Source: Acidobacteriota bacterium (GTDB lineage Bacteria > Acidobacteriota > CAIWXX01). From it: a DNA stretch of 38,479 bases. The position numbers and the translations under genes were made by a program. The DNA is taken from NCBI GenBank assembly GCA_016191015.1, contig JACPPM010000233.1:1-38479 (forward strand). The letters are read 5' to 3'. Within the stretch, counting starts at the first letter, position 1. Each line of letters starts with the position of its first letter. Below are positions 26,680 through 34,199 of the stretch, piece by piece. The notes beneath the pieces are model-generated. The model ran no database searches, was not told the origin of the DNA, and worked only from the letters and a program-made list of their open reading frames with translations.

Positions 26680-27582
26680 ATGGAGGCCACGAGGGTGGAC
26701 GCCAGAGCGCAGGGTATCGTGCGATCGATGGGGATCGTGTGTGTGATCCTTGTCCTGAGTCAGGGGGTTGCTGGTGCAGCGGCGAGCGCGCTGGCGATTC
26801 GCGACCAGACCGGGCGGATGGTGACTCTCGGAGCACCCGCCCGCAGAGTCGTGTCGCTCGCCCCGAACATGACCGAGATGTTGTACGCGGTGGGGGCCAG
26901 TGCCGTCGGTGACACGACTGCGTGCGACTATCCTGACGCGGCGCGTCAACTCCCCAAGGTCGGCGGGATGGACCCCGACTACGAGTCTATCGCCGGCCTC
27001 CGCCCCGACCTCATCCTCGCCACCACCTCCGGCAATCGCATGGAAGCGGTCGACTATCTCCGCACCCTTGGCTACCCCGTCTACACTTCGGACCCGGCCA
27101 GCGTCGACGCCGTTCTGGCGGCGATGGTCGACGTTGGGATTCTCACAGGCCGTCGCGACACGGCCGAGACGGCAGTGTCTGCAATCAGGGAGAAGCTGAA
27201 GGCCGCGCCACCTGCTCACGCAACCCCCGACCGCCCTCGAGTCCTGTGCCTCATCTGGCCCGAACCGATCATGACGGTGGGTGGCGACACGTTTGTCCAC
27301 GACCTCATCGAGCGGGCCGGGGGCTTGAGCTCCACCGCGTCTCTTCCTCATGGCTGGCCGATTCTCGATCGCGAATCGTTCCTGATGCTGAAGCCGGACG
27401 TGATCGTGCTGGCGGCGGCAGCTGGGCGAATGAACAGGGAATCGCTTCCTCGCAGCTTGCTCGACCTCACAGGCTCGACTCCCGTCGCGTTCGTCGATGA
27501 GAACCTTTTACTTCGCCCGGGGCCGCGGGTCGGAGATGCTGTCGTGCGGTTGAGGGAAATTCTTGCCGGAGCACGTCCATGA
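26680..27582 (+). CDS. btuF: Cobalamin ABC transporter substrate-binding protein
   Basis: RRVVSLAPNMTEMLYAVGASAVGDTTACDYPDAARQLPKVGGMDPDYESIAGLRPDLIL; downstream of B12 riboswitch; start may be internal (Met at about 26728). Confidence 0.88.
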   Translation: MEATRVDARAQGIVRSMGIVCVILVLSQGVAGAAASALAIRDQTGRMVTLGAPARRVVSLAPNMTEMLYAVGASAVGDTTACDYPDAARQLPKVGGMDPDYESIAGLRPDLILATTSGNRMEAVDYLRTLGYPVYTSDPASVDAVLAAMVDVGILTGRRDTAETAVSAIREKLKAAPPAHATPDRPRVLCLIWPEPIMTVGGDTFVHDLIERAGGLSSTASLPHGWPILDRESFLMLKPDVIVLAAAAGRMNRESLPRSLLDLTGSTPVAFVDENLLLRPGPRVGDAVVRLREILAGARP

Positions 27583-28583
27583 AACGCTACGCTCTGCTCA
27601 TTATTGCACTTCTCGCGGCCTTCGCTTTCTCCATTCTGGTGGGGTCACAGGCCATCCCCGCGTCCAGGATTCTCCAGGCGCTCTCCTCCGGCGACGGAGA
27701 TCCGGTCATCCGGCAGGTGATCCTGCAGATCCGGCTCCCGCGCATCCTCCTCGCCGCCCTCGCCGGCGCCTCCCTCTCGATCGCCGGCGCCTCCTTTCAG
27801 TCACTCCTGCGCAATCCGCTTGCGGATCCGTACATTCTCGGGGTCTCCAGCGGCGCGGCGATGGGATCGGTAGCTTCGATCGCGCTCTTCGGGAGCCGCT
27901 CGCCGCTCGTGATGGGCCTCTGTGCGTTCCTCGCCTCATCCGTGGCCATCGGAATCGTCTACTTCCTCTCGGCTCGGAGGGGGGCCGAGCCCGACCCTGA
28001 CAGGATGTTGCTCGTGGGGATGGCGATCAGCAGCTTCGCCGCTTCGGGGCTGATCCTGTTTCTCGGCCGTTCCGCCGGCAACGACGCGCGCACGATATTG
28101 CACTGGCTGATTGGGGACGTGAGCGGCCGACGGCTCGCAGAGATCGGAATCTTCGTTCCGCAGATCCTCGGACTGATCATTGCGCTGTTCATCTCGTCGC
28201 ACCGTTTCAATCTGCTCTCCCTCGATTCCGACGTCGCCGCTTCGCTGGGTCTGAACGTGCGCAATCAGCGACGCACCGGCTACCTGCTGGCATCTTTCCT
28301 GACCTCCTCCGTCGTCAGTCTCTCTGGATCGATCGGATTCGTGGGGCTCGTCGTTCCACACCTCGGGCGTATGCTGTTCTCTTCCGACTGTCGTGTGCTG
28401 TTCCCGGTGTGTGGTGCGCTCGGAGCCGTTCTGCTGATGTCGGCTGACGCGGCGGGGCGCGTCATTTTCGCGCCCGTCGAAGTTCCGGTCGGAGTCATCA
28501 CCGCCCTTCTCGGTTCGCCCGTCTTCGTCTACATCCTCTATGTGCGCCGCCGTGCAGCTTTCCGGGAGCCGACCGGTGGCTGA
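27579..28583 (+). CDS. btuC: Cobalamin/iron-siderophore-type ABC permease
   Basis: FecCD family: LRLPRILLAALAGASLSIAGASFQSLLRNPLADPYILGVSSGAAMG; 4-nt overlap with btuF. Confidence 0.9.
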   Translation: MKRYALLIIALLAAFAFSILVGSQAIPASRILQALSSGDGDPVIRQVILQIRLPRILLAALAGASLSIAGASFQSLLRNPLADPYILGVSSGAAMGSVASIALFGSRSPLVMGLCAFLASSVAIGIVYFLSARRGAEPDPDRMLLVGMAISSFAASGLILFLGRSAGNDARTILHWLIGDVSGRRLAEIGIFVPQILGLIIALFISSHRFNLLSLDSDVAASLGLNVRNQRRTGYLLASFLTSSVVSLSGSIGFVGLVVPHLGRMLFSSDCRVLFPVCGALGAVLLMSADAAGRVIFAPVEVPVGVITALLGSPVFVYILYVRRRAAFREPTGG

Positions 28584-29271
28584 TCTGAGGGCGATTTCGG
28601 TCGCGTACCGTCCCGGGGATGGCCGTCTCCTGTTCGAGAACCTCGACCTTCACGCGAGCGCCGGCGAGGTGATCGGGATCACGGGCAACAACGGAGAAGG
28701 CAAGACATCGTTGATGCGAATACTGGCAGGGCTCCTGCGTCCGGATCGGGGGACCGTTCTGCTGGACGGCGAACCGATTCTCGCGAGGCCACGGCGGGAG
28801 ACGGCGCGCGCTGTCGGATACCTGCCGCAGTTCGAGCTCACGCCGTTCCCGATCACGGCCTGGCAGATGGTCCTCATGGGGAGGTACCCACACATGATCG
28901 GCAGGCGGCTGGTGGAGAACGGCAAGGATCGCGAAGAGGCGGAGGTCGCGATGCGGACCGCTGGAGTCTATCACTTGCGGGACGGCACGTTCATGCACCT
29001 GAGCGGCGGGGAGCGGATGCGCGTTCGTGTCGCGCGGCTAATCGCGCAGCGCCCGCAGACGATGCTGCTGGACGAACCAACCACCTATCTCGACGACGAT
29101 TTCAGGCAAACTCTCGCCGGTCTGGTCCGGTCATGGTGTGCCGGGGGGAGCAGCGCGGTGGTTGTGTCTCACGATCTGGAGTTTCTCGAACAGACCGGCG
29201 GTCGCATCTACCATCTGGAAGCGGCGAAGTTGCGTCCAAAGATGACGATGATCAAGGAGAAAGACCAATGA
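28576..29271 (+). CDS. btuD: Cobalamin ABC transporter ATP-binding protein
   Basis: Walker A GNNGEGKTS, LSGGERMRVRVARLIAQ, MLLDEPTTYLD; GTG 28576 or ATG 28540 start. Confidence 0.88.
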   Translation: MADLRAISVAYRPGDGRLLFENLDLHASAGEVIGITGNNGEGKTSLMRILAGLLRPDRGTVLLDGEPILARPRRETARAVGYLPQFELTPFPITAWQMVLMGRYPHMIGRRLVENGKDREEAEVAMRTAGVYHLRDGTFMHLSGGERMRVRVARLIAQRPQTMLLDEPTTYLDDDFRQTLAGLVRSWCAGGSSAVVVSHDLEFLEQTGGRIYHLEAAKLRPKMTMIKEKDQ

Positions 29272-31250
29272 CACGAGGAGGGAACGCGATGCGGTTGACG
29301 ATATTTTCAATGGTGCTGTCGTGCGGCCTGGCTGCCGGCCAGGACCCCGCGGCGAAGCCGGCAGAGGTGATCACGGTGGAAGCCTCGCGGATACACGGCA
29401 ATACGGTCGATGCGGGGAAGCTGCCTCAGGCGACGATCGTGATCTCGCGAGGAGATATCGAGAGGAGCTCGGCGGGGACGGTCTATGAGCTGCTTTCGGG
29501 ACGGCCCGAGCTCGTGTTCTACGATCAAGTCGGCAATGGCAAGGAGGGTGTGATCGACCTCCGGGGCTTCAACGAGGGCACGGCGGCGGCGGTCTTCCTG
29601 GATGGGGTGCGCATCAACGAGCCTGACGACAATCGTTCCCTCCTGATGCAGATCCCGCTCGACCTGGTCGATCGAATCGAGATCTTCAAGGGATCCTCTT
29701 CGACTGTCCTCGGCGGGGGTGCGCTGTCGGGAGCGATCCGCATCTACACAGATCCCGACAGGACGGGTGGACGGGTGGCGGTGAAGGGCGGGTCGTTCTC
29801 GACGGGGGGAGTGCTCGCCGAGCTGGCCCTCGGGTCCTACAACCTGGCAGCCGGATACGAACGCGGCGTTGGGTTCAGGGAGAATTCCGATGCTGTCGAC
29901 GGATGGATACGAGCGGGCGGACGGAGGGTAACGACTGGAGGCTCGCTCGGCGTCAGCTACTCCTACGTCGACACCCGCTTCGGCTCGCCAGGCGCCCTGA
30001 CGCGGGAAGAGATCGAAGCGGACAGGCACGCGGCACCGTTCAACCGGGTGGACGAGAACACAGCGGCCACTCACCTGCTCTCCGCCGACATCCTGCACGA
30101 CTTCTCCGGATGGACGGCGTCGGGAAACGTCTTCGTTCGGCGAAATAACAGCGACGCTCTGACGACGGGCCGCAGCGCCGCGCTCTACGGAGGCTTCGCC
30201 ACCGATTCGACCAACACGAGCACCGGGACCACCGTGCAGCTCACGATCCCCGTCAAAGCCACGACCTCGCTCACGGCGGGAGCCGAGCTGACCTGGCTGC
30301 AACTCGACGCCGATGGCTTCTTCACCGATGTGGGCGGAAATCGGACCGGCCCCGCTTCGTCGACCTCGACGGGGGAGAACTGGCAAGGGCTCTTCGCGCA
30401 GATCGAAAGCTCAGCCGGGCCTCACCTCACCTTCGTCGGCGGGCTGCGCTACGATCGGCAGGCGATCAATTTCGACGATCGTCAGAGCCGCGATCAGGAG
30501 GCGCGAACATTCGACAAGGCCACGTACAAGGTGGGAGCCAGCTACGAGTGGGCGGCGGGATGGACGACCTTCGCCAACTACGGCACCGCGTTTCAAACCC
30601 CCACGATCATCGATCTGTTCGCCTACCCGACCTTCTTCAGCAATCCGGATCTGAGACCCTCCACGGCCTCGACGATCGAGGTCGGGCAGAGGGTTTCCCG
30701 CGGTGCGTTCCGAGGCGAGATTTCCGCCTATGACCTGAAGGTCGACGACGAGGTGGTGTTCGTCGTCAGCGATCCGTTCAACTTCATCGGGCGCAACGAA
30801 AACGCGGGGAAGAGCAGGAGGCGTGGGCTGGATCTGACCGGTGTCTGGACCGGAGCGAAAACGGAGCTGCGGGCGGGGTACAGCTTCGTCAGAGCAAGGT
30901 TTCTTGCAGGCGGCTTCAAGGGGAGCCTGCTCGTGATGGTGCCGGAGCAGAAGTTCGAGATGAGCGCAAGTAGGCAGATCACCGACCGGATCCGCCTCGA
31001 CGGACGCCTCCTCCACACCGGTTCCCAGCACGTTCTGGGCGACGAGATGAACTCGCTGGAGCGTCTTCCGGCCTACACCACAATCGATCTGAAGGTTTCC
31101 TTCGCCGCACGGACCTGGAAACTCGAAGGGGCCATCCGCAATCTCCTCAACAGCGAATACGAGACGCGGGGCATCACAAACGGGTTTGAAACCTATTTCA
31201 CGCCCGCGCCGAAGATCAACGGGTACGTGACAGTGACATATGCCTTCTAG
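29268..31250 (+). CDS. btuB: TonB-dependent outer-membrane receptor (cobalamin-type)
   Basis: Signal peptide, TonB-box-like VITVEAS, plug domain and C-terminal aromatic beta strand (YVTVTYAF); ATGA overlap with btuD; start at 29268 or 29289. Confidence 0.85.
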   Translation: MTRGGNAMRLTIFSMVLSCGLAAGQDPAAKPAEVITVEASRIHGNTVDAGKLPQATIVISRGDIERSSAGTVYELLSGRPELVFYDQVGNGKEGVIDLRGFNEGTAAAVFLDGVRINEPDDNRSLLMQIPLDLVDRIEIFKGSSSTVLGGGALSGAIRIYTDPDRTGGRVAVKGGSFSTGGVLAELALGSYNLAAGYERGVGFRENSDAVDGWIRAGGRRVTTGGSLGVSYSYVDTRFGSPGALTREEIEADRHAAPFNRVDENTAATHLLSADILHDFSGWTASGNVFVRRNNSDALTTGRSAALYGGFATDSTNTSTGTTVQLTIPVKATTSLTAGAELTWLQLDADGFFTDVGGNRTGPASSTSTGENWQGLFAQIESSAGPHLTFVGGLRYDRQAINFDDRQSRDQEARTFDKATYKVGASYEWAAGWTTFANYGTAFQTPTIIDLFAYPTFFSNPDLRPSTASTIEVGQRVSRGAFRGEISAYDLKVDDEVVFVVSDPFNFIGRNENAGKSRRRGLDLTGVWTGAKTELRAGYSFVRARFLAGGFKGSLLVMVPEQKFEMSASRQITDRIRLDGRLLHTGSQHVLGDEMNSLERLPAYTTIDLKVSFAARTWKLEGAIRNLLNSEYETRGITNGFETYFTPAPKINGYVTVTYAF

Positions 31251-31275: not shown

Positions 31276-31301
31276 TCATCCGATCTCCGATTTCTTGCGT
31301 A
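31276..31301 (+). promoter_or_regulatory. Candidate ECF-type promoter upstream of the sigma factor gene
   Basis: TCATCCGA - 14 bp - CGTA (TTGCGTA), identical blocks and spacing to 32685-32710. Confidence 0.65.
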
Positions 31302-31385
31302 TGTGGAAGGGAGGGATTGGATCGCCCCGTGGACGAGGGGGAAGAGGGGGTTTGGATTTGTGCTTCGCACGAGTGAGCTATAGGA

Positions 31386-31405
31386 TGCATCATCAGGATG
31401 ATGCA
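31386..31405. repeat. Perfect inverted repeat at the ECF sigma start region
   Basis: TGCATCAT-CAGG-ATGATGCA overlaps the ATG at 31398. Confidence 0.65.
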
Positions 31406-31943
31406 CGGGCAGGTGGACCATGAAGAGGATCGCACCCTGCTCGCCGCCATCGCCATTGGAGACCGCGGAGCATTCCAGCAATTTTACTCCCGCCATGCCG
31501 GACGCGTTCTTGGCTACGTCCGACAGCTCACGCGCAACCCCGCGCTCGCCGAAGACATAACCCAGGAGGCGTTTGTGGCGGTGTGGTTGAAAGCTGCCAG
31601 TTACCAGGCGGACCGGGGCGACCCTGCCGGTTGGCTTTTTACGATTACGCGCAACAAGCTGGTCGATAAGTGGAGACGGGGTGACAGGGATGCGGAGACC
31701 GATGGTGCGCCGATCCTGGCGGGTCTGGCGGATCCGCCAAACCCGATCGATGTTCGCGTCAGCCTGCGTCAGGCCATGTCGCACCTGACCGACGACCAGA
31801 GGCGAATGCTGGAGATGGCCTACTATGGAGGTCTGACGTACGAAGAGACTGCGGACGCGCTGCGTGTCCCGGTTGGCACGTTGAAGTCGAGAATGCGCGC
31901 GGCGCTGGGGCAGCTCCGTGTGATCCTCGAAGGGAGCACATGA
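31398..31943 (+). CDS. ECF-family RNA polymerase sigma factor
   Basis: Sigma region 2 (FQQFYSRHAGRVLGYVRQLTRNPALAEDITQEAFVAVWLKA...WLFTITRNKLVDKWRR) and region 4 (RRMLEMAYYGGLTYEETADALRVPVGTLKSRMRAALGQLR). Confidence 0.95.
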   Translation: MMHGQVDHEEDRTLLAAIAIGDRGAFQQFYSRHAGRVLGYVRQLTRNPALAEDITQEAFVAVWLKAASYQADRGDPAGWLFTITRNKLVDKWRRGDRDAETDGAPILAGLADPPNPIDVRVSLRQAMSHLTDDQRRMLEMAYYGGLTYEETADALRVPVGTLKSRMRAALGQLRVILEGST

Positions 31944-32611
31944 TGGCGGCAGGGGCGAAGTATCACCCGTCGCAGGAGCTGCTGCTCGAGTTTGCCACGG
32001 GCGGCGGCGACCGGCCCCGCCGGGCGTTGATCGAGGCGCATCTCGCTCACTGTGCGGACTGCCGATCGGATCTAGGTCGCGTAGCTCGTCCGGGCGGCGC
32101 TCTCCTGGCTGCCGTGGATGACGCGCCTCTCCCACCAGCTCTCCTCGACCGGATCGTCCAGCGGATCGACTCGATGCCCGCCCTCCCGCCTCAGCCCGCC
32201 GATGGAATCGACCTTCCCCCTGGGGTTCTGGCCGAGCTGGTGTCGATGAAGCCGCTCCGGTGGCGATCGCCGGCTTTGCGCGGCAGCCGCATCGCCACGC
32301 TCTTTCATGATGATCACAGCGGCGCGGTGCTCCATCTGGGATGGATGCCCGGAGGGCGGGTTTTTCCACCACATCGTCACGCCGGCGCAGAAGAGGTCGT
32401 GGTTCTTGCAGGCGGGTACACCGATGGCCCAAAGCACGTGGAGACAGGCGACTGGGTGGTGACCGAACCCGGCGCGTCCCACTCACCCACGACTGATCCC
32501 GGTGAGGATTGCTGGATCCTGACACGACTCGACGCGCCGATTCGATTCACCGGATGGCGCGGGTGGCTCCAGCGCGCCGCCCTCCTGTTCTCCAGCATCA
32601 CGCGCCGATAG
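31940..32611 (+). CDS. ChrR-type zinc/cupin anti-sigma factor
   Basis: ZAS motif HLAHCADC; C-terminal cupin FPPHRHAGAEEVVVLAGGYTDGPKHVETGDWVVTEPGASHSPTTDPGEDCWIL; ATGA overlap with sigma gene. Confidence 0.9.
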   Translation: MMAAGAKYHPSQELLLEFATGGGDRPRRALIEAHLAHCADCRSDLGRVARPGGALLAAVDDAPLPPALLDRIVQRIDSMPALPPQPADGIDLPPGVLAELVSMKPLRWRSPALRGSRIATLFHDDHSGAVLHLGWMPGGRVFPPHRHAGAEEVVVLAGGYTDGPKHVETGDWVVTEPGASHSPTTDPGEDCWILTRLDAPIRFTGWRGWLQRAALLFSSITRR

Positions 32612-32643
32612 TCCTCCCCGCCGACTGCGGTCCACCGGCGTGC

Positions 32644-32659
32644 TGTGACACGCGTCACA
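32644..32659. promoter_or_regulatory. CRP/FNR-family-like palindrome
   Basis: TGTGA-CACGCG-TCACA, in the anti-sigma/DUF4331 intergenic region. Confidence 0.5.
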
Positions 32660-32684
32660 TACGCTCCATGGTGCGTGCTGCCGC

Positions 32685-32710
32685 TCATCCGAAACCAGCA
32701 TCTTTGCGTA
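32685..32710 (+). promoter_or_regulatory. Candidate ECF-type promoter upstream of the DUF4331 gene
   Basis: TCATCCGA - 14 bp - CGTA (TTGCGTA). Confidence 0.65.
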
Positions 32711-32747
32711 CCGGCCAGTGTACGAAAAGAAAACATGGAGGATTGAA

Positions 32748-34199
32748 TTGAAAAAGAAAGCAATAAGCGGAGCCAGCAGGCTCCTTTTCTCGACCACACT
32801 CGCCATCGCCCCCCTCGCCGGGACTCTGGCGATGGCATCGAGCCACCGCGAAGCGCCGTTCGTGACGGAACACTCGAAAGTCGACGCCACTGATTTCTAC
32901 ATGTTCACCAGCTACGAACCTGGTCGCGCGGGGTACGTCACGATCATCGCCGACTACATCCCGATGCAAAGTGTCTACGGCGGGCCCAACTTCTTCACGA
33001 TGGACCCGGAGGCGATCTACGAAATCCACATCGACAACAACGGTGACGCCAAAGAGGATCTGACCTTCCAGTTCAAGTTCACGAACACCCTCAACAACAT
33101 CTCCCTCGACATCGGCCCGGCCGGCGCCACGAAGAAGGTTGCGATCCCTCTGATCAACGCGGGCGCCATCAGCGCAACCGATACCTCTCTCCTGAACGTG
33201 GTGGAGACGTACACGGTGAACCTGATTCGCGGCGAACGTCGGAGCGGTTCGTCCAGCGCTGTCACGAATGCGGACAGCGGCGAATCCACCTTCGTCAAAC
33301 CTGTCGACAACATCGGCACGAAGTCAATCGCCGACTACGACGCGTATGCGAACGCGCACATCTATGAGATCAAGATCCCGGGGACGAATGCGACCGGGCG
33401 GATGTTCGTCGGGCAGCGGCAGGATCCGTTCGTCGTGAATCTGGGACCGACCTTCGATCTCGTCAACCTGAATCCGCTCGGCCCCGTCAACGGCGGCAGC
33501 AATAGTCTTGCCGGGAACAACGTCACGACGCTGGCGTTGGAGATTCCCGCGAGTGTCCTGGTTTCGACCGGCCAGGACGTGATCGGTGGATGGACGACAG
33601 CCAGCCTGCCGAGAAACCGCACCCTCAGCAAAACCCCGACATTCTCCAAACCGGACAAGGAGTTTGGCCCATACATACAGGTGTCGCGGCTGGGGATGCC
33701 GCTGGTCAACGAGGCTGTCATCGGAATCAAGGACAAGGACCGGTTCAACGCGAGCGAGCCGAGGGGTGACGGGCAATTCCTCACCTACGTGACGCATCCG
33801 ACTCTCCCGACGCTCTTGCAGGTTCTCTTTGGCGTCCGCGCCCCCACCGCATACCCGCGCAACGACCTCGTGGAAGTGTTCCTCACGGGAGTGGCAGGGC
33901 TGAACGCGACGGATACGGCCGCCGAGTACCTGCGGCTCAACACCAAGACCCCCGCGGTCGACTGGGAGGATCAGAAGAATCTGGGCGTCATCGCCGGGGA
34001 CATCGCCGGCTTCCCGAACGGGAGGCGTCCGGGGGATGACGTTGTGGACAGCGCACTGCGCGTCTTGATGGGCAAGCTGCTCGACACCACCGTCGCCCCC
34101 GACGGTCAGCTCAAGTACACCGACGGCGCGAACGTCAACGCGAAGATGTTCCAGGACGAGTTCCCCTACCTGCAGGCTCCGCTTCCGGGCGCAGAATAG
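32748..34199 (+). CDS. Secreted DUF4331 family protein
   Basis: MASSHREAPFVTEHSKVDATDFYMFTSYEPGRAGYVTIIADYIPMQ...; TTG start at 32748 with GGAGG at 32737-32741 and signal peptide MKKKAISGASRLLFSTTLAIAPLAGTLAMA. Confidence 0.88.
   Translation: MKKKAISGASRLLFSTTLAIAPLAGTLAMASSHREAPFVTEHSKVDATDFYMFTSYEPGRAGYVTIIADYIPMQSVYGGPNFFTMDPEAIYEIHIDNNGDAKEDLTFQFKFTNTLNNISLDIGPAGATKKVAIPLINAGAISATDTSLLNVVETYTVNLIRGERRSGSSSAVTNADSGESTFVKPVDNIGTKSIADYDAYANAHIYEIKIPGTNATGRMFVGQRQDPFVVNLGPTFDLVNLNPLGPVNGGSNSLAGNNVTTLALEIPASVLVSTGQDVIGGWTTASLPRNRTLSKTPTFSKPDKEFGPYIQVSRLGMPLVNEAVIGIKDKDRFNASEPRGDGQFLTYVTHPTLPTLLQVLFGVRAPTAYPRNDLVEVFLTGVAGLNATDTAAEYLRLNTKTPAVDWEDQKNLGVIAGDIAGFPNGRRPGDDVVDSALRVLMGKLLDTTVAPDGQLKYTDGANVNAKMFQDEFPYLQAPLPGAE

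Follow-up and report, generated by a model that had tools for sequence, protein, structure and literature searches.

The promoter of PSPTO_1043, the ChrR-partnered sigma factor of P. syringae, has been defined by ChIP-seq together with expression tests, and the ChIP-seq-derived consensus is TGATCC-N16-CGTA (PMC5507510, in part). The core regulon of RpoE-ChrR includes genes of the flavin amine oxidase and cyclopropane synthase types, along with phrB and an SDR gene. For SigK, a cysteine pair equivalent to C133/C183 is given for 94% of ECF18 and 56% of ECF19 members (PMC7509140, in part). The locus described here lies in the window, that is, the whole stretch of DNA analyzed (38,479 nucleotides), and very probably constitutes an autoregulated module of an ECF sigma factor and a ChrR-type anti-sigma factor, with a secreted DUF4331 protein as its main local output. 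Its features are as follows:

31276–31301, forward strand: candidate ECF-type promoter of the sigma/anti-sigma operon, TCATCC-N16-CGTA (exact motif, spacing and recurrence 5′ of ECF genes)
31398–31943, forward strand: ECF sigma factor, 181 aa, SigK-like, without cysteines (Pfam regions 2 and 4)
31940–32611, forward strand: cupin-containing zinc anti-sigma factor of the ChrR type (Cupin_7, zf-HC2, alignment with ChrR)
32644–32659, forward strand: perhaps fortuitous CRP/FNR-like palindrome TGTGA-N6-TCACA, ending 25 bp 5′ of the −35 block of DUF4331
32685–32710, forward strand: candidate ECF-type promoter of DUF4331, TCATCC-N16-CGTA (exact motif and recurrence 5′ of DUF4331)
32748–34199, forward strand: DUF4331 protein of 483 aa that starts with TTG and probably has a signal peptide (PF14224, 2.2e-146)

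For all three genes, the Pfam domains agreed with the identities given in the initial annotation. Both PF04542 and PF08281 scored above cut-off within the 181 residues of the sigma factor, which identifies it as an ECF (group IV) protein. Its best NCBIfam model was SigK, with a score under that model's cut-off, and among solved structures SigK (4nqw, 1e-25) ranked best, with RpoE (2q1z) at 6.4e-21. The anti-sigma gene overlaps the sigma gene by ATGA. Its product carries Cupin_7 (1.4e-15) and zf-HC2 (5.4e-5), both over cut-off, and aligns with ChrR (2z2s, 9.6e-22); the curated NCBIfam model TIGR02451 gave 116.4 bits, below its cut-off of 124.5. When compared with the zinc ligands listed for ChrR (PMC6852236, in part), those of the anti-sigma domain (H9, H34, C38 and C41, corresponding to H6, H31, C35 and C38) and those of the cupin domain (H145, H147, E151 and H181, corresponding to H141, H143, E147 and H177) are all kept. 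The DUF4331 product matched PF14224 with 488.8 bits (gathering score 27). Translation of its gene likely starts at the TTG at 32748, preceded by a good ribosome site (GGAGG, 32737–32741), rather than at the first GTG at 32718. Directly 5′ of the sigma gene, positions 26680–31250 hold BtuF/BtuC/BtuD-like uptake genes and a TonB receptor gene.

The pattern TCATCCGA-N14-CGTA occurs at 31276–31301, 5′ of the ECF sigma gene, and at 32685–32710, 5′ of the DUF4331 gene, and these are its only exact matches in the whole window. Position and identical spacing were thus exactly as first annotated, and so was the spacer between TCATCC and CGTA, which measured 16 bp at both sites. The similar TTGCGTA context of the −10 block was likewise confirmed: TCATCCGA-N11-TTGCGTA is common to both sites and has two exact matches in the 6.43 Mb genome, both at this locus (no place with one mismatch, six with two; reversed-pattern control, three). 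The shorter pattern is matched exactly four times in the genome. The remaining two are internal to ORF calls of 822 and 168 aa; this is a weak criterion, because the mechanical ORF calls also put both sites of the module within small or antisense ORFs. One relative of the extended motif with two mismatches (C51:16710–16735, GCATCC...TTTGCGTA) is found no more than 100 bases into an ORF on the opposite strand. A scan of the genome with CATCCG-N15-CGTA returned 21 places (reversed control, two), of which none beyond the two at this locus was convincingly placed 5′ of a gene. A sigma-70-like promoter was searched for upstream of the ECF sigma gene and the DUF4331 gene, and none was found. As for the CRP/FNR-like palindrome, TGTGA-N6-TCACA has its sole exact match within the window at 32644–32659, and the matches in six of the 259 loci examined are all copies of this same site; a second regulator was, therefore, set aside and the palindrome left outside the main claim.

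Compared with the PSPTO_1043 consensus, the two sites agree in 9 of the 10 block bases with an equal spacer and differ at position 2 of the −35 block. Apart from both blocks and a small number of spacer positions, the sites have little in common with each other, and both the exact and the extended pattern were picked after the two copies had been seen, as would suit a chance likeness or a remnant left by local duplication with no promoter function. Because the pattern was chosen in this way, conservation elsewhere is the stronger test. It was assessed in a named set, comprising the best 80 named DUF4331 loci out of 292 relatives. ATCC-N16-CGT was present within 200 bases 5′ of DUF4331 in 59 of these 80 loci and, as defined, absent in 21, whereas each of the other spacers from 8 to 26 was seen in 0–9 of the 80 (shuffle mean, 1.1). 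Outside Oxalobacteraceae, 22 of 39 named loci carried it, compared with 0.62 on average after Markov resampling of the sequence, and before other genes of the same loci it occurred once in 341 cases. In most Proteobacteria, the consensus 5′ of DUF4331 is TGAATCC(A/G)-N15-CGTA(T/C)A.

The motif definitions, refined on the named set, were then applied to the phylum of the window, in which DUF4331 is present in 63 of 396 genomes. The 40 better-matching, mostly full-length DUF4331 places were taken, 31 of them new relative to the earlier sets. The CGTA form had a spacer of 16 in 6 and of 17 in 9 of the 40, and any other spacer in 0–1; 25 loci had no motif before DUF4331. Among the 31 new places, 11 had a spacer of 16 or 17. 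The motif thus recurs at fixed spacing 5′ of DUF4331 in several phyla. With position and spacing fixed across phyla and controls near zero, chance or a functionless relic becomes a very improbable explanation of the pair.

The occurrence of the motif at both genes of a locus was examined in 20 ECF-linked loci, namely the window, 17 loci of the named set, L193 and L194. With a spacer of 16 or 17, the motif stood before DUF4331 in 14, a count that includes L193 and L194, which were chosen after their DUF4331 motif had been seen; it stood before the sigma gene in 8 and before both in 7. For the 15 loci of the phylum set that have a sigma gene, the corresponding numbers were 7, 6 and 5. The sigma gene was, hence, without the motif in the majority of ECF-linked loci (12/20 and 9/15). 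Paired promoters combined with the gene order of the window were found in L194 and L225, and a Pseudoalteromonas plasmid locus of the same gene order carries ATCC-N16-CGT (CGT only) before both genes. At four of five plasmid loci examined (Marinobacter, Jannaschia, Sulfitobacter and Comamonadaceae), the motif was absent and no adjacent gene was annotated as a sigma factor. The initial annotation had made its reading depend on paired motifs in orthologous loci. This expectation held in part: pairs recur in 7/20 and 5/15 ECF-linked loci, far above controls, but many loci lack one or both sites. Its proposal that DUF4331 is a direct output of this sigma factor is nevertheless supported by the conserved spacing, the paired sites and the match to the published core, all of which are sequence features.

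The sigma factor of the window, the linked sigma factors of the named set and three from its phylum (31 rows) formed one clade with support of 100/96, the linked rows having been pre-selected at E 1e-15 for similarity to the window sigma. This clade stood apart from 26 other sigma factors of the window genome, which served as the outgroup (26 of 30 sigma loci; L134, the locus of the window itself, was left out, and another three yielded no row). The DUF4331-linked sigma factors lie nearer to SigK than to the RpoE of Rhodobacter. Nearest to the window sigma is that of a Holophagaceae locus (L054) with the same gene order; there, the DUF4331 site ends in CGTT and the ECF gene has no site. The SigK cysteine pair is confined within the clade to its proteobacterial branch, which also contains a near copy (L069); the four typed partners in this branch (L036, L073, L082 and L100) are all RskA-like. 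In the window sigma, which contains no cysteine at all, the C133/C183 columns are A and I. Of 20 anti-sigma factors typed beside DUF4331-linked sigma factors, 13 had a ChrR cupin domain and 7 had RskA_C.

Both sites could, in principle, be real ECF promoters read by another ECF sigma factor of the genome, the local one being a mere neighbor. Sigma region 2 is matched 48 times in the genome (47 over cut-off), so that another sigma could read the sites. Furthermore, a sigma gene beside DUF4331 need not be its driver: in a Janthinobacterium locus (L191, 3309–4534) a sigma pair partnered by NrsF lies directly 5′ of DUF4331, whose promoter nevertheless belongs to the same TGAATCC-N16-CGTA class. 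The ECF hits in Janthinobacterium loci (E near 1e-7) were a different sigma in both loci examined (L191 and L192) and were kept out of the tree. Against a foreign sigma as reader speak the restriction of the extended motif to this locus, the recurrence in other families of promoters paired on the sigma gene and DUF4331, the single clade of the linked sigma factors, and the agreement of the motif with that of a ChrR-partnered sigma. Such a reader is, accordingly, improbable, and the local sigma factor is the favored candidate.

In eight proteobacterial genomes (seven Oxalobacteraceae and one Agitococcus), the TGAATCC form was found at 24 places, in seven of the eight genomes. Besides DUF4331, several of these places lie 5′ of flavin amine oxidase, of a cyclopropane synthase-like gene, of a gene for a fasciclin protein (in one Noviherbaspirillum genome) and of TonB receptor genes (in Oxalobacteraceae, L180, L175 and L189); others fall within ORFs. 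In a Noviherbaspirillum locus (L190, 6249–9970), a TGAATCC-N16-CGTACA site is followed by a cyclopropane synthase-like cluster with a lipocalin gene. When the amine oxidase and cyclopropane synthase of the RpoE-ChrR core were sought in the window genome with Oxalobacteraceae queries, only partial, weak matches and no full-length relative were obtained, and a search of the same genome for a second ChrR cupin protein over cut-off found none; the module, therefore, looks self-contained here. The term "self-contained" of the initial annotation applies in the window genome but not in Oxalobacteraceae, where the motif class precedes other genes too.

These targets also bear on whether the module simply belongs to the singlet-oxygen system of RpoE-ChrR (ECF11). 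The ChrR-type anti-sigma factor with all its ligands, a promoter core and spacing as for PSPTO_1043, and the flavin amine oxidase and cyclopropane synthase-like genes behind the motif in Oxalobacteraceae, being of RpoE-ChrR core types, would all fit such membership. However, the window sigma scores best to SigK, the anti-sigma factor falls short of the TIGR02451 cut-off (116.4 versus 124.5), the two core targets have no full-length relatives in the window genome, and sister sigma factors are partnered by RskA-type anti-sigma factors. Ordinary ECF11 membership is conceivable but rather unlikely.

An AlphaFold model of the whole DUF4331 protein (mean pLDDT 78) predicts a β-rich N-terminal part and C-terminal helices. 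Foldseek found no match to the model in the PDB at E 0.001 or better; VIA-align returned mostly antibody fragments with Z up to 5.7, a level common for this method, and the sequence had no relative among solved structures at E up to 1. With a whole-protein model and no significant structural relative, no function was read from the fold. DUF4331 is often followed by genes for a TPR protein and a HupE/UreJ_2 transporter (protein cluster in 42 of 80 loci) and, at other loci, a DUF4198 protein lies 3′ of it (L191 4656–8850 and L044 6842–9111 are examples of such surroundings); these neighbors may point to a role of the envelope protein in handling metals. On Rhodobacterales plasmids (L261 5025–11623 and L263 358–6911), DUF4331 lies beside the type II secretion genes GspD, GspJ and GspK, which suggests dedicated export; the ECF motif was not found at these two loci. 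DUF4331 is, in sum, a widespread and probably exported family. A search of open-access literature turned up no paper naming DUF4331 or PF14224; the main ECF reclassification paper may list this gene context. The recurring pairing with a sigma factor provides the family with a testable regulatory context, and, given the conserved promoter and sigma partner, DUF4331 itself becomes directly testable.

Taken together, these observations allow a mechanism to be proposed. Without a signal, the sigma factor would be held by the zinc ZAS-cupin anti-sigma factor, which is produced from the same operon by coupled translation. A stress signal, possibly reactive oxygen species, would cause the anti-sigma factor to let it go; that the signal is of the oxidative or singlet-oxygen type is suggested by analogy, because of ChrR alone. 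RNA polymerase with this sigma factor would then start at TCATCC-N16-CGTA before its own operon and before DUF4331. Transcription of its own operon would provide positive feedback and, at the same time, new inhibitor that resets the switch. After induction, the DUF4331 product would be exported and presumably act in the envelope. In broader terms, the sigma factor, the ATCC-N16/17-CGTA promoter class and DUF4331 may have been kept together across phyla in one deep clade between SigK and RpoE-ChrR, with the sensor swapped between ChrR-cupin and RskA and DUF4331 as the core envelope stress or metal-handling protein of an unnamed regulon, a proposal for and against which we see the balance as even. 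Modules of this kind would be natural examples of one output, DUF4331, controlled via two sensor types.

The anti-sigma factor of the module resembles those of RpoE-ChrR (ECF11, Rhodobacter sphaeroides) and PSPTO_1043/1042 in being a cytoplasmic zinc ZAS-cupin protein with the same ligands (PMC6852236 and PMC5507510, both in part), and the operon order is that of these systems. Unlike RpoE, the window sigma is nearer to SigK in profile and solved-structure searches, and the output of the module is DUF4331. The product of mpt83 is a fasciclin-type protein, and SigK, of the SigK-RskA/mpt83 system (ECF18/19), is the closest solved and curated relative of the window sigma. Sigma factor, anti-sigma factor and exported output are likewise joined, under a SigK site, in the mpt83-sigK-rskA cassette (PMC7509140, in part). 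In contrast to that system, the anti-sigma factor of the window is a soluble ChrR-type protein (Cupin_7) and not RskA, although RskA_C is found in sister loci; the sigma factor lacks the cysteine pair, and the output family is again DUF4331. SigF-NrsF is similar in that another ECF/anti-sigma pair of this kind adjoins DUF4331 in Janthinobacterium, but the anti-sigma family differs and the Janthinobacterium sigma matches other NCBIfam models.
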